A stretch of 33,425 nucleotides of DNA from Ruminiclostridium sp. (GTDB taxonomy: Bacteria > Bacillota > Clostridia > Oscillospirales > Ruminococcaceae): NCBI GenBank assembly GCA_017625405.1, contig JAGALB010000039.1, positions 1 to 33,425 of the forward strand, in the 5' to 3' direction. Below the pieces are notes generated by a model. The model was not told the origin of the DNA. It was given only the letters and a program-made list of their open reading frames with translations, and did no database searches. Positions 9,383 through 23,033 of this stretch are shown one piece after another (position 1 is the first letter of the stretch; every line of letters starts with the position of its first letter). A program made the position numbers and the translations under genes.

Positions 9383-9411
9383 GGCTCTTTTCTGATCCGA
9401 AGACACACAAG

Positions 9412-9443
9412 TTAACCCCTGTAAAAACAGGGGTTAATTTTTT
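9412..9443 (+). terminator. rpmB terminator
   Basis: A perfect 10-bp stem (9412-9421 with 9428-9437) with a TAAAAA loop is followed by six T residues. It separates rpmB from the GTPase-nuclease gene. Confidence 0.92.
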
Positions 9444-9475
9444 ATCCTTCAGCTGTTATGAAAAGGACGGTTTCT

Positions 9476-12010
9476 ATGAAGAAAATTTCTCTCGGAATAC
9501 TCGCTCATGTTGACGCAGGAAAGACAACTCTTTCCGAAAGTATGCTCTATACAAGCGGTGCAACACGTAAACTGGGCAGAGTTGACCACAAGGATGCATT
9601 TCTTGATACCCATACTCTTGAGAAAAGCCGTGGAATAACTATTTTTTCCAAGCAGGCCGTATTCACATCAGGAGATACACAGTTCACGCTTCTAGACACT
9701 CCAGGCCATGTGGATTTCTCCGCCGAGGCGGAGCGTGTATTGCAGGTGCTGGATTATGCGGTGCTGCTTATAAGCGGAACCGATGGTGTCCAGAGCCATA
9801 CAGAAACATTATGGTATCTTCTGAAAAGCTATCACGTACCTGTGTTTGTCTTTGTGAATAAAATGGACCTTTCCCAGTCCGGCAAGGAGCTTATCATGGC
9901 TGAGCTGCAGCGCCGTCTTGACGGAGCCTGTGTGGATTTCAGCAATGCTGACGGCGGAGATTTCGACAGCGAAGCCGCAGCTTTGTGCGATGAGGAAATG
10001 ATGCAGGAATATCTTGAAAACGGCGTTATTTCCGTGGAAAAGATAAAGGCTGCCATAAAAAAGCGCAGACTTTTTCCTTGCTTTTTTGGCTCGGCGCTTA
10101 AAATCAAGGGTGTCGATGAATTTTTAAGGTGTCTTTCTGCATATACGGTCCAACCGGATTATAATGAAGAATTTTCCGCAAGCGTCTTTAAAATTACCGA
10201 GGATGAACAGGGCAACCGCCTTACACATCTCAAGGTTACAGGCGGTTCACTGAAGGTAAGAAGCCTTATCGGCGATGAAAAGATAAATTCCATACGTATT
10301 TACTCAGGCACAAAATTTACAACCACTGACGAAGCTCAGGCAGGAACAGTATGTGCCGTTCTCGGTCTGTCTTCAGCTTATACCGGACAAGGCCTCGGTG
10401 CTGCGGCTGATTCGCCGTTACCGCTGCTTGAACCTCTTTTCTCGTATAAAATAATCCTGCCGTCTCATATTGACGTATATGTAGGTCTTGCTGCGCTCAG
10501 GAAGCTGGAGGAGGAGGACCCCCAGCTGAGAATTGTCTGGAATGAACGTATGCGTGAAATATATCTTCAGCTTATGGGTGAAATCCAGCTTGAAATCCTG
10601 AAAAGCGTTATTTCCTCACGTTTTGGTTTTGATGTTGAATTCGGCGAGGGAAGTATTTCCTATCGTGAAACCATAGCTGCGCCTGTTGAGGGCATCGGCC
10701 ACTATGAGCCTTTACGCCACTATGCAGAGGTACACCTGCTTTTAGAGCCTCTCGAACAGGGAAGCGGTCTGAGGTTTGTAACCGAATGCCGTGAAGATAA
10801 GCTGGACAGAAACTGGCAACGTCTTATCCTGACTCATCTTGCTGAAAAGAAGCATCTGGGCGTTCTGACAGGCTCGCCTATAACCGATATGAAGATAACT
10901 CTCGTTGCAGGCAGAGCGCACCTGAAGCATACCGAAGGCGGCGATTTCCGACAGGCTACCTATCGTGCTGTAAGACAGGGGCTTATGTGCGCTGAAAGCG
11001 TGATTCTTGAGCCATGGTACAGGTTTCAGCTTAAAGTCCCCGTTGATTGTACAGGCAGAGCAATGACCGATCTGCAGCGCATGGATGCGGAATTTTCATC
11101 ACCTGAGCAGAATATGAATGAAACTGTTATTGAGGGCAGTATTCCTGCTGCTACGGTGAGAGGTTATCAGAGCGAAGTAACCGCATATACAAAGGGAAAA
11201 GGCAGAATGACCTGTATTCCTGACGGTTACCGTCCTTGCCGCAATCCTGAAGAGGTTATAGAAAAATGCGGCTATAATGCAGAGGGCGATATGGATAATC
11301 CGCCTGATTCGGTTTTCTGTTCGCATGGTGCAGGCTTCAATGTGAAGTGGTACGATGTACCTGAGTACGCCCATATAAACACAGGTCTTTCGGGTGAGCC
11401 GAAAGAACCCGAAACTGTTCAGGAAAAGCCTTTGAACGAGTTCAGATCGCAGAAGGCTACCGACAAGGAGCTTATGGCGATATTTGAGCGCACTTACGGT
11501 AAAATAAAACGTGATGAACGCAGTGCAATGCGTACTGAGCATAAAAAAGAGCCCAAGCCTTATAAGGGTACGCCTGTTCCCGCGGGACCCGAATATATTC
11601 TTGTTGACGGTTATAATATTATTTTTGCATGGGACAGGCTGAAAAAGCTGGCTGAAGAAAGTCTTGACCTGGCAAGAACGGAGCTTATCAGTATTCTTTG
11701 TAATTTTCAGGGCTTCCGCCGTTGTGAACTCATAGTTGTGTTTGACGCCTACAAGGTCAAGGGCAACAGAGGCGAGGTTGAACAGGTAGGCGGTATAAGC
11801 GTGGTATATACCAAGGAGGCAGAAACCGCCGATATGTATATCGAGAAAGCCACACGCAGACTGGGCGGCAAGCACAAGGTGAGAGTTGCCACATCGGACA
11901 GGCTTGAGCAACTTATTATTCTCGGCAGCGGTGCAATCCGTGTAAGTGCAACCGAGTTTTTAAGAGAGGTTGAAGAAACTGAAAAGACAATCCGTTCATA
12001 TATCGAATAA
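9476..12010 (+). CDS. TetM-like ribosomal GTPase fused to a C-terminal NYN (Rae1/YacP-like) nuclease domain
   Basis: The product has 844 residues from the ATG at 9476, which follows AAGGACGG by five bases; the in-frame ATG at 9458 has no ribosome site. Residues 1 to ~640 form an EF-G-like translational GTPase of the tetracycline ribosomal-protection group: AHVDAGKTT (10-18), RGITI (52-56), DTPGH (74-78) and NKMD (128-131), then EF-G-type domains. A charged linker (~640-703) follows. Residues ~704-838 form a NYN/PIN-like domain with acidic positions in VDGYNII, VVFDAY, AETADMY and ATSDRLE, resembling Rae1/YacP, a ribosome-dependent A-site mRNase in Bacillus. A role in ribosome rescue or quality control is likely (inference). 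Composition matches the neighbours, and no mobile element is adjacent. Confidence 0.9.
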   Translation: MKKISLGILAHVDAGKTTLSESMLYTSGATRKLGRVDHKDAFLDTHTLEKSRGITIFSKQAVFTSGDTQFTLLDTPGHVDFSAEAERVLQVLDYAVLLISGTDGVQSHTETLWYLLKSYHVPVFVFVNKMDLSQSGKELIMAELQRRLDGACVDFSNADGGDFDSEAAALCDEEMMQEYLENGVISVEKIKAAIKKRRLFPCFFGSALKIKGVDEFLRCLSAYTVQPDYNEEFSASVFKITEDEQGNRLTHLKVTGGSLKVRSLIGDEKINSIRIYSGTKFTTTDEAQAGTVCAVLGLSSAYTGQGLGAAADSPLPLLEPLFSYKIILPSHIDVYVGLAALRKLEEEDPQLRIVWNERMREIYLQLMGEIQLEILKSVISSRFGFDVEFGEGSISYRETIAAPVEGIGHYEPLRHYAEVHLLLEPLEQGSGLRFVTECREDKLDRNWQRLILTHLAEKKHLGVLTGSPITDMKITLVAGRAHLKHTEGGDFRQATYRAVRQGLMCAESVILEPWYRFQLKVPVDCTGRAMTDLQRMDAEFSSPEQNMNETVIEGSIPAATVRGYQSEVTAYTKGKGRMTCIPDGYRPCRNPEEVIEKCGYNAEGDMDNPPDSVFCSHGAGFNVKWYDVPEYAHINTGLSGEPKEPETVQEKPLNEFRSQKATDKELMAIFERTYGKIKRDERSAMRTEHKKEPKPYKGTPVPAGPEYILVDGYNIIFAWDRLKKLAEESLDLARTELISILCNFQGFRRCELIVVFDAYKVKGNRGEVEQVGGISVVYTKEAETADMYIEKATRRLGGKHKVRVATSDRLEQLIILGSGAIRVSATEFLREVEETEKTIRSYIE

Positions 12011-12022
12011 AATATGAAACTT

Positions 12023-12076
12023 TGCACAGTATATTTTCTGAAAGGGAATGGTAAGATATGAATCTTATACTGTGCA
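12023..12076 (+). repeat. 11-bp inverted repeat bracketing a small gene's ribosome site and start
   Basis: TGCACAGTATA (12023-12033) is perfectly complementary to 12066-12076. The intervening 32 bases hold the AAAGGG ribosome site and the ATG at 12058. The right arm is codons 4-7 of the small gene. In mRNA this would place the start region in a closed loop. Confidence 0.6.
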
Positions 12077-12192
12077 GTCGTAATTGCGTTTATCAGAAAG
12101 ACGGTTACTGCTGTCTTGACGGAGAGGCTGTAATAACGGAAGCAATAGCGTCAACTTGTTGTTATTTTGTTGAATCAAGAGCAAGAAAATGA
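12058..12192 (+). CDS. 44-residue Cys-rich small protein
   Basis: This ORF starts at ATG 12058 nine bases after AAAGGG and ends at TGA 12192. It contains six Cys residues: C6, C10, C18, C19, C34 and C35. The spacing (CSRNCVYQKDGYCCL, then TCCYF near the end) looks like the small clostridial Cys-rich proteins with paired cysteines that probably bind a metal ion. It may be cotranscribed with the GTPase-nuclease gene, whose stop is 47 bases upstream. A terminator begins seven bases after its stop, supporting a real gene. Its function is unknown. Confidence 0.65.
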   Translation: MNLILCSRNCVYQKDGYCCLDGEAVITEAIASTCCYFVESRARK

Positions 12193-22650: not shown

Positions 22651-23006
22651 GTAAACTAAATCAGGTGGACGCGGGGAGAAATCTCTGAGGAAAGTCCGAG
22701 CATCACAGAGCAGGATAGCTGTTAACGGCAGCCGAGGGCGACCTTAGGGCAAGTGCAACAGAAATATACCGCCTGTTTTTCAGGTAAGGATGGAAAGGCG
22801 AGGTAAGAGCTCACCAGAGCGGCAGAGATGTCGCTGCTATGTAAACCCTATCCGATGCAACGCCGATTGGTTCGGAGAATAATACGTCTGCTCGGCGTAC
22901 TTCGATTAAGGCGGCTACATTGCTTACGCAAGACAAGCTTACCGGCGACGGTAAGATTAGATAGATGTTCACCCAACGACAGAACTCGGCTTATCGATTT
23001 AGTTTT
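22651..23006 (+). ncRNA. rnpB: RNase P RNA
   Basis: This is the catalytic RNA that trims the 5' end of precursor tRNAs. The conserved segments are in the right order: GAGGAAAGTCC (22687-22697), ACAGAAATATACCGCC (22758-22773), GGTAAGAGCTCACC (22802-22815) and ACAGAACTCGGCTTA (from 22979). The terminal stem P1 is formed by AACTAAATC (22654-22662) with GATTTAGTT (22996-23004). The length, about 355 bases, is usual for bacteria. A consensus promoter lies upstream and two terminators follow. Ends are inferred from P1 and the promoter and may be off by a few bases. Confidence 0.97.
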
Positions 23007-23033
23007 CCTTTGATTATTACCGCATTGCGGTTC

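Follow-up and report, generated by a model that had tools for sequence, protein, structure and literature searches.

The window, the whole stretch of 33,425 nucleotides from Ruminiclostridium sp. that was analysed here, carries on its forward strand an open reading frame (9458/9476-12010) free of internal stops, which encodes domains I to V of an EF-G/Tet-type GTPase followed by a C-terminal extension and linker and by a Rae1/YacP-type NYN domain in one polypeptide (Table 1). The start codon at 9476 is preceded by AAAAGGACGG, which was judged by eye to resemble a Shine-Dalgarno sequence. With the exception of EF-G_D2, all Pfam domains exceeded their gathering scores, and the GTP-binding motifs together with domains I to V place the protein in the EF-G/EF2 branch of the translational GTPase superfamily; one relative is labelled 'translation factor GTPase family protein' by NCBI. 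A contig search returned at least 590 relatives, and all 80 loci retained from it span most or all of the query including the NYN part, which excludes a chance fusion. The uninterrupted reading frame, the Pfam domains and these 80 loci thus bear out the joining of a GTPase through a linker to a Rae1-like nuclease, as proposed in a preliminary description of this DNA, and a profile search likewise finds NYN_YacP (residues 708-841) where residues 704-838 had been assigned to this family.

Table 1. Features of the fusion gene and its upstream region (positions in the window; residues of the encoded protein)
Feature	Position	Strand	Remark
Intrinsic-terminator-like hairpin and T-run	9410..9446	+	Separates rpmB (L28, assigned by eye) from the fusion gene
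Whole gene, translational GTPase-Rae1 fusion	9476..12010	+	844 aa plus stop
GTPase (G) domain, residues 4-223, motifs G1-G5 intact	9485..10144	+	Pfam GTP_EFTU, 2.8e-48
Domain II (EF-G_D2), residues 232-300	10169..10375	+	Slightly below gathering score, 26.3 vs 27
Domain III (EFG_III), residues 339-390	10490..10645	+	Pfam
Domain IV (EFG_IV), residues 392-506	10649..10993	+	Pfam
Domain IV loop I, core of G-H-[FY]-E-P-L-[RK]-H-Y-A-E-V, family-specific	10700..10732	+	
Domain IV tip loop III, H-x-K-H-T-x-G-G-D-F-R (H482-R492)	10919..10951	+	
Domain V (EFG_C), residues 510-590	11003..11245	+	Pfam
C-terminal extension (...S-[VI]-F-C-x-x-G...W...H), residues 598-634, family-specific	11267..11377	+	Common to unfused relatives
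Linker segment DKELMxIFERTYGxIKR, residues 663-679, conserved in fused members	11462..11512	+	Alignment, 58 fused rows
NYN_YacP (Rae1-type) nuclease domain, residues 708-841	11597..11998	+	Pfam, 1.4e-48

From the end of the terminator-like hairpin to the start codon of the fusion gene there are about 29 nt. Of 72 loci, 43 have a hairpin of this kind within the 250 nt that precede the gene, near the start codon in only some of them, a count made without a control set, and an attenuator at this position is a lead only. No neighbouring gene family recurs widely among 96 loci when frames of at least 60 aa are considered; the commonest neighbour cluster besides the fusion itself, transporters as judged by eye from one example, occurs at 16 of the 96. 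A small Cys-rich ORF just downstream of the gene was seen at one of the 72 loci examined, that of the window itself.

The GTPase part is strongly conserved within the family. Residues H11, D13, K16, T17, T55, D74, H78, K129 and D131 were invariant in 106 aligned fused rows and N128 was kept in 105 of them, confirming the earlier impression of intact GTPase motifs. Moreover, the loop I motif of domain IV was present in 97 of the 106 fused and in all 15 unfused rows, the S[VI]FC..G extension in 104 fused and again all 15 unfused rows, and the motif of tip loop III in 105 fused rows, while none of the six references (Tet, OtrA, EF-G and EF-G-like proteins) carried any of them; the presence of the tip motif in 15 of 15 unfused rows is by construction, since these rows were retrieved with that motif. 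In nine fused proteins from other classes the tip loop was looser, with K484 changed in L191, L195 and L196 and even a loose pattern failing in L197, and S[VI]FC was not found in three of the nine. The unfused frames, at 624-671 aa, are too short to hold the linker segment.

Comparison with curated models placed the GTPase part well outside both neighbouring groups. It reached 398 bits against a cut-off of 775 for tet_protect, its best curated model, and 291.7 bits against a cut-off of 659.4 for EF-G, and its best solved relative was TetO (258 bits); identity to the listed Tet and OtrA proteins amounted to 27-31%. In the aligned tip it reads H-x-K-H-T-x-G-G-D-F-R versus Y-x-P-V-S-T-P-A-D-F-R in Tet(M), Tet(Q) and Tet(S). 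Two further proteins of the genome contain an EF-G domain IV and are, by score, EF-G and an EF-G-like protein. With domain IV loops of its own, a score that falls far short of the Tet cut-off and unfused relatives as a sister group, the GTPase is not a Tet protein but belongs to a subfamily distinct from both Tet and EF-G. Its former designation as TetM-class therefore stands at the level of the superfamily and fails for Tet proteins in the strict sense, and the removal of tetracycline associated with that designation finds no support in the low Tet score, the differing tip loop or the separate clade.

This separation was recovered in every GTPase tree, a single branch splitting the Tet rows from the fused plus unfused rows with support of 98 and 100 in two quick trees and 100/100 in a careful tree. 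The first quick tree included 40 of the 106 fused rows, and the second quick tree and the careful tree were built with 28 (19 from the class Clostridia and 9 from other classes). Fused and unfused proteins formed two groups in the quick trees (support 90 and 87, and 76 and 74 in the second tree), and in the careful tree, rooted on Tet, the unfused group (83/100) was nested within the fused one with a bootstrap that had not settled. A topology holding the fused rows together was not rejected (p-AU 0.39). All of these trees fit a single change of state of the GTPase part between fused and unfused, the direction of which they do not settle.

The nuclease part is clearly of the Rae1 type, as the preliminary description had suggested. 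It scored 165.4 bits with NYN_YacP (Pfam cut-off 24.6), and the only PDB chains matched by the C-terminal part were the YacP entries 5mq8 and 5mq9 (1.7e-26), which we take to be Rae1/YacP of Bacillus subtilis. Residues D711, D757, D786, E790 and D808, presumably the active site, match residues 7, 53, 81, 85 and 104 in chain 5mq8 by a manual count along the alignment and were, together with N714, invariant in all 110 fused rows, which represent 107 distinct genes, and in all 46 stand-alone Rae1 rows. The acidic residues described earlier as intact thus never vary among the fused homologues, whose loss of catalytic Asp would have spoken against the preliminary description. What has changed is the end of the domain: in the window it aligns to profile positions 1-141 of 166, and the conserved Rae1 tail is absent. 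The basic pair in the LEKxRR columns was found in 42 of the 46 stand-alone rows, the other four lacking it as well, versus 1 of the 110 fused rows, and the NYN profile was matched to at least position 159 of 166 in 101 of 103 stand-alone but in only 50 of 117 fused genomes. The solved Rae1 chain carries ...FEKWRR with the second R at position 166. In B. subtilis, where Rae1 is an endoribonuclease that cuts mRNA in the ribosomal A site, R166P is among the rae1 suppressors of efp and was classed by the authors as loss of function (PMC6613710). The mRNAs of yrzI and bmrCD are given as candidate targets of Rae1 (PMC10632193).

Fused and stand-alone Rae1 replace each other in Clostridia. NYN_YacP was present in 254 of 392 genomes of this class, with a single match in 248, and 224 of the 254 were sorted by open-frame length into fused (117), stand-alone (103) and unclear (4). 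All six genomes with extra NYN matches are fused, and only one (G273) also holds an intact stand-alone gene; the extra matches in G341 and G410 are decayed remnants with frames of 49-81 aa that lie nearer to stand-alone than to fused domains. Extra matches in G129, G179 and G208 were rejected as false, as they fall in a protein of 163-165 aa that by eye resembles an Lrp-type regulator. At least seven families (f29, f30, f33, f34, f53, f72 and f137) include both states with no classified genome that has both. Moreover, G067 and G177, from genera that are otherwise fused, carry a stand-alone Rae1 from another branch of a Rae1 tree (built from all 46 stand-alone and 41 of the 110 fused rows), and a matching GTPase was not found in either at E<=1e-60, nor at that threshold in G086, likewise from an otherwise fused genus; the Rae1 tree covers the former two. 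The mutual exclusion partly reflects shared ancestry, and only a few of the switches were shown to be independent.

The two parts are also found apart. Co-occurrence of an unfused GTPase, recognized by the exact tip motif, with stand-alone Rae1 was not significant (9 of 103 genomes versus 6 of 138 NYN-less genomes, p 0.19), and with no clear tendency of the separate genes to occur together, neither part depends strictly on the other. In addition, both the fused and the stand-alone form are missing from many genomes of the order to which the window belongs, indicating that the function is dispensable.

We favour, with moderate confidence, the interpretation that the protein is a ribosome-associated endoribonuclease of the Rae1 type with a translational GTPase of its own as carrier, a Rae1 substitute in which ribosome docking has passed to the GTPase, which may have taken over the docking role of the lost basic motif. 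In the most likely cycle, the GTPase part in its GTP-bound form would dock at the factor site of a ribosome whose A site is empty and insert the domain IV tip into the decoding centre; once GTP is hydrolysed, domain IV would withdraw, and the nuclease on its linker of about 70 residues would enter and cut the mRNA within or beside the A site. Since the tip and the nuclease would hardly fit into the A site together, these steps should be sequential. Cutting by the fusion would then be A-site-specific, and GTP hydrolysis could time it. The joint action of nuclease and GTPase on a stalled ribosome put forward in the preliminary description is plausible and is indirectly supported by two findings, that the fusion and stand-alone Rae1 replace each other and that fused forms have lost the Rae1 tail. 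As a bolder and more tentative generalization, Rae1 in many Clostridia might be a GTP-driven machine, in which a dedicated GTPase that is neither EF-G nor Tet checks ribosomes whose A site is empty and passes them on to a tethered Rae1 unable to dock alone, GTP hydrolysis both timing and licensing mRNA cutting.

Two other readings appear unlikely. In the first, the GTPase would carry the NYN domain to ribosomes or to their assembly intermediates, and its targets there would be rRNA or tRNA and not mRNA. In line with this, the NYN domain was proposed to act in rRNA and tRNA maturation (PMC4342817), and B. subtilis transcribes rae1 together with the rRNA methylase gene yacO, mutations in either acting in one pathway (PMC6613710). 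However, Rae1, the closest characterised relative, cuts mRNA in the A site (PMC6613710), and the conserved domain IV tip would, by analogy with EF-G and Tet, point to the decoding centre of complete ribosomes. In the second, equally improbable one, two independent enzymes share a chain, so that the fusion links only their expression and the nuclease works like free Rae1. Each part does occur without the other, and in G067 and G177 a stand-alone Rae1 replaces the entire fusion, but the basic tail was lost from the fused nucleases and kept in the stand-alone ones, the linker has a conserved segment of its own and the fusion persists over many families. Quite unlikely, finally, is a ribosomal protection protein whose GTPase dislodges tetracycline or another A-site drug while the NYN domain contributes an RNase step to the resistance, a role suggested for Tet-NYN proteins by Atkinson 2015 (PMC4342817) and favoured by the relationship to TetO and tet_protect, by a loop III as long as that of Tet(M), Tet(Q) and Tet(S) and by the finding that Tet(M) stays active with alanine at S508, P509 and V510 (PMC4750697), but set back as the main role by the curated score, by tip and loop I sequences unlike those of Tet(M), Tet(Q), Tet(S) and an OtrA-like protein, by the separate clade, by a Tet protein above the cut-off in 7 of the 80 fused genomes searched and by the replacement of fused and stand-alone Rae1, which resistance does not explain. 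A common gene of gut bacteria that is related to tet genes need not confer resistance.

A natural fusion of Rae1 with a translational GTPase, together with an unfused sister group and the exchange of fused for free forms, offers a way to test how Rae1 enters the A site and yet spares most mRNAs under translation, in particular whether cutting owes its specificity to GTP binding and domain IV. Should the GTP-driven machine exist, the unfused sister GTPases would form a group of translation factors not yet described, with the same ribosomes as their target.

The Tet(M), Tet(O), Tet(Q) and OtrA proteins have the five-domain GTPase plan in common with the fusion, and Tet(M), Tet(Q) and Tet(S) also share the D-F-R end of the equally long tip loop III, whereas tip, loop I and C-terminal extension differ and the fusion remains below the curated Tet cut-off. 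EF-G likewise has the five-domain plan but unlike loops, and H482 of the fusion falls in the column of a histidine of the genome's own EF-G that presumably equals residue 583 of E. coli EF-G. The nuclease domain is homologous to Rae1/YacP (5mq8, 5mq9) across 134 residues, with the acidic residues kept; Rae1 of B. subtilis, however, is a separate small protein ending in a C-terminal EKWRR motif, which is gone from the GTPase-fused nuclease of the window. A YacP-like NYN domain was reported on Tet proteins of ten clostridial species by Atkinson 2015 (PMC4342817), and these Tet-NYN proteins, compared by architecture (Tet-like GTPase plus YacP-like NYN in Clostridiales), very likely belong to the same family as the window fusion; experimental work on a Tet-NYN fusion was not found in the literature searched. 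The architecture as such is thus already in print, filed there as Tet with an added RNase domain, and what is added here is the setting apart of the GTPase from Tet, the unfused sister group, the replacement of stand-alone Rae1 and the loss of its tail.

The preliminary description had claimed a translational GTPase and a Rae1-like nuclease on one polypeptide, and profile searches bore this out: a single open frame matched the Pfam GTPase domain and EF-G domains III, IV and V, followed by NYN_YacP at residues 708-841 (1.4e-48), and the only PDB chains matched by the nuclease part were the YacP structures 5mq8 and 5mq9 (1.7e-26), placing it in the NYN/Rae1 family. The motifs of both parts, described as intact in the window, were also kept in homologues. 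The catalytic acidic residues D711, D757, D786, E790 and D808, which align to residues 7, 53, 81, 85 and 104 of the PDB YacP (Rae1) chain, showed no variation across the 110 fused rows, which represent 107 distinct genes, or across 46 stand-alone rows, and 10 of the 12 GTPase positions checked never varied in 106 fused rows, N128 being kept in 105 and S206 in 97. The neighbours of the window gene (upstream glycerol-3-phosphate dehydrogenase and rpmB, the latter assigned by eye; downstream a GH127 glycosidase) are ordinary and not widely conserved among relatives, and the downstream Cys-rich frame was found in the window alone among 72 loci. The upstream hairpin leaves little room for a promoter before the fusion, and such a hairpin also lies near the start in loci L002, L005, L007, L008, L058 and a few more. 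In L002 the stretch from about 100 to 15 nt before the gene start has a TTGACA-17-TACAAT, judged by eye to be close to consensus, that runs straight into such a hairpin, an arrangement that is possibly an attenuator.

Features of the window in and around the fusion gene
Feature	Position	Strand	Remark
Terminator-like hairpin	9410-9446	+	ends ~29 nt before fusion start codon
Fusion open reading frame	9476-12010	+	844 residues
Cys-rich small open reading frame	12059-12190		44 aa, directly downstream of fusion
Bacterial RNase P RNA class A	22653-23009		234.7 bits

Fused and stand-alone Rae1 substitute for one another. The NYN_YacP family was present in 254 of 392 Clostridia genomes, each at least 95% complete, and 248 had one match; by open frame, 224 of the 254 were classified as fused (at least 600 aa; 117 genomes), stand-alone (at most 230 aa; 103) or in between (4). 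At least seven families contain both states, and no classified genome in them has both. Genus g45 comprises seven fused genomes and the stand-alone G067, and genus g41 the fused G036 and G063 and the stand-alone G177; the stand-alone copies of G067 and G177 branch outside the fused nuclease group, and both genomes lack the GTPase at E<=1e-60, as does the stand-alone G086 (genus g81), whose nuclease was left out of the tree. Extra matches occurred in six genomes, all fused. G273 has an intact stand-alone gene in addition to the fusion, and G341 (L204) and G410 (L205) contain decayed remnants, in pieces in frames of 49-81 aa, beside an intact fusion; these are closer to stand-alone than to fused domains (57.8 vs 36.2 bits in G341; 40.0 vs 35.0, a small margin, in G410). 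The extra weak matches in G129, G179 and G208 were rejected as NYN domains, their host protein of 163-165 aa being by eye an Lrp-type regulator. The distribution has the pattern expected if two genes did one job, and the remnants would be what redundancy leaves behind.

Stand-alone Rae1 ends in LEKxRR, and 42 of its 46 rows have the basic pair; the solved chain ends in FEKWRR, its second arginine being residue 166, and the available text on a B. subtilis screen lists Rae1 R166P among efp suppressors, classed by its authors as loss of function (PMC6613710). Among the 110 fused rows, 20 have residues at the columns of this pair and one has the basic pair; longer fused copies keep a tail without the arginine pair. 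The profile match reached position 159 or beyond in 50 of 117 fused vs 101 of 103 stand-alone genomes (Fisher p 1.7e-21, which overstates independence because the genomes share kinship). On our reading the GTPase may supply what the tail did, and we infer that the role of the tail is ribosome docking. In the nuclease tree (140 columns, 87 rows, many forks unresolved) the fused domains formed one group (support 99/94), also with three stand-alone copies, L118 (G372), L170 (G224) and L180 (G147). An unfused GTPase is present in G372 and G224 and absent in G147; of the three, L170 and L180 still have the basic tail, and L118 lacks the basic pair. These three may show the partners as they were before fusion.

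The GTPase of the fusion forms a subfamily of its own. The domain IV tip H-x-K-H-T-x-G-G-D-F-R occurs in 105 of 106 fused rows, loop I GH[FY]EPL[RK]HYAEV in 97 and S[VI]FC..G, the motif of the C-terminal extension, in 104. The tip pattern, at the DNA level, was present in 119 of the 392 genomes; 15 of the matches were unfused proteins (open frames of 624-671 aa, ending before the nuclease), all with loop I and the extension, and with the tip by construction, as it was used to find them. Two further unfused GTPases (G343, G186) came from a protein search. The group extends to Bacilli, where an unfused relative lies over two frames near rpsN on Ligilactobacillus salivarius plasmid p1 (L162, 9001-10889; no PLSDB gene listed). 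Because unfused GTPases with the same loop I and extension exist, either the nuclease would have joined an existing GTPase group or part of the group would have lost it; the trees agree with a single change of state, in either direction.

A protein search of species genomes gave at least 590 relatives of the window protein. The best 80 of these were all fusions, with 55-73% identity in the best segment, titled Oscillospiraceae (42), Monoglobaceae (3), Butyricicoccaceae (3), Lachnospiraceae (2) or without a family name (30); a Monoglobus copy is named 'translation factor GTPase family protein' at NCBI. In other classes of the phylum, nine of 104 further genomes with a match carried fusions, and these GTPases nest inside one branch of the fused sequences of Clostridia (support 99), which suggests that they arrived by transfer. 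Their tip is looser, with the tip residue K484 changed in three of the nine and a loose pattern failing in one. Three NYN_YacP frames of 302-349 aa from other classes (L198, L199, L200) are longer than Rae1, match in the NYN part only and have no GTPase match. Two unannotated fecal 'Bacteriophage sp.' records, MT835563.1 (H41; marked UNVERIFIED) and MT835514.1 (H42), each contain a near-full-length fusion, which seems likely to be bacterial DNA filed as phage.

In GTPases of the EF-G/Tet type, domain IV is placed at the ribosomal A site. Rae1 is described, in the text available, as an endoribonuclease of the ribosomal A site that may gain more access to mRNA on ribosome stalling (PMC6613710). 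We propose that the GTPase would check the A site first and that the tethered nuclease would then enter it, in this order because domain IV and the nuclease can hardly sit there together. Each part also exists alone, which argues against strict coupling, and unfused GTPase and stand-alone Rae1 showed no significant co-occurrence (p 0.19). That the GTPase protects from tetracycline is improbable: although Tet(M) remains active with tip residues changed, according to the portion seen of PMC4750697, 7 of the 80 fused genomes searched (of 117) encode a Tet protein above the cut-off in addition to the fusion.

According to the accessible text of Atkinson 2015 (PMC4342817), Tet proteins in ten clostridial species have gained an RNase domain of the YacP-like NYN type, and RNase activity may be part of how they confer resistance; the same text has Tet loops contact and dislodge tetracycline. 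A literature search for NYN with ribosomal protection protein, TetM, or translational GTPase and Clostridia, in a coverage without most subscription journals, found nothing published later about the fusion; PMC12844678 was set aside, as its title and opening lines concern CRISPR strategies. The label 'TetM-class' given earlier to the window GTPase holds only at the level of the superfamily: the protein reached 398 bits against the curated Tet model, where 775 are needed, and 291.7 against the EF-G model, where 659.4 are needed, and tip, loop I and extension motifs were all absent from Tet(M), Tet(Q), Tet(S), an OtrA-like protein and the genome's own EF-G and EF-G-like protein. At the tip column where the fusion has histidine, the genome's own EF-G likewise has histidine, whereas Tet proteins have tyrosine.
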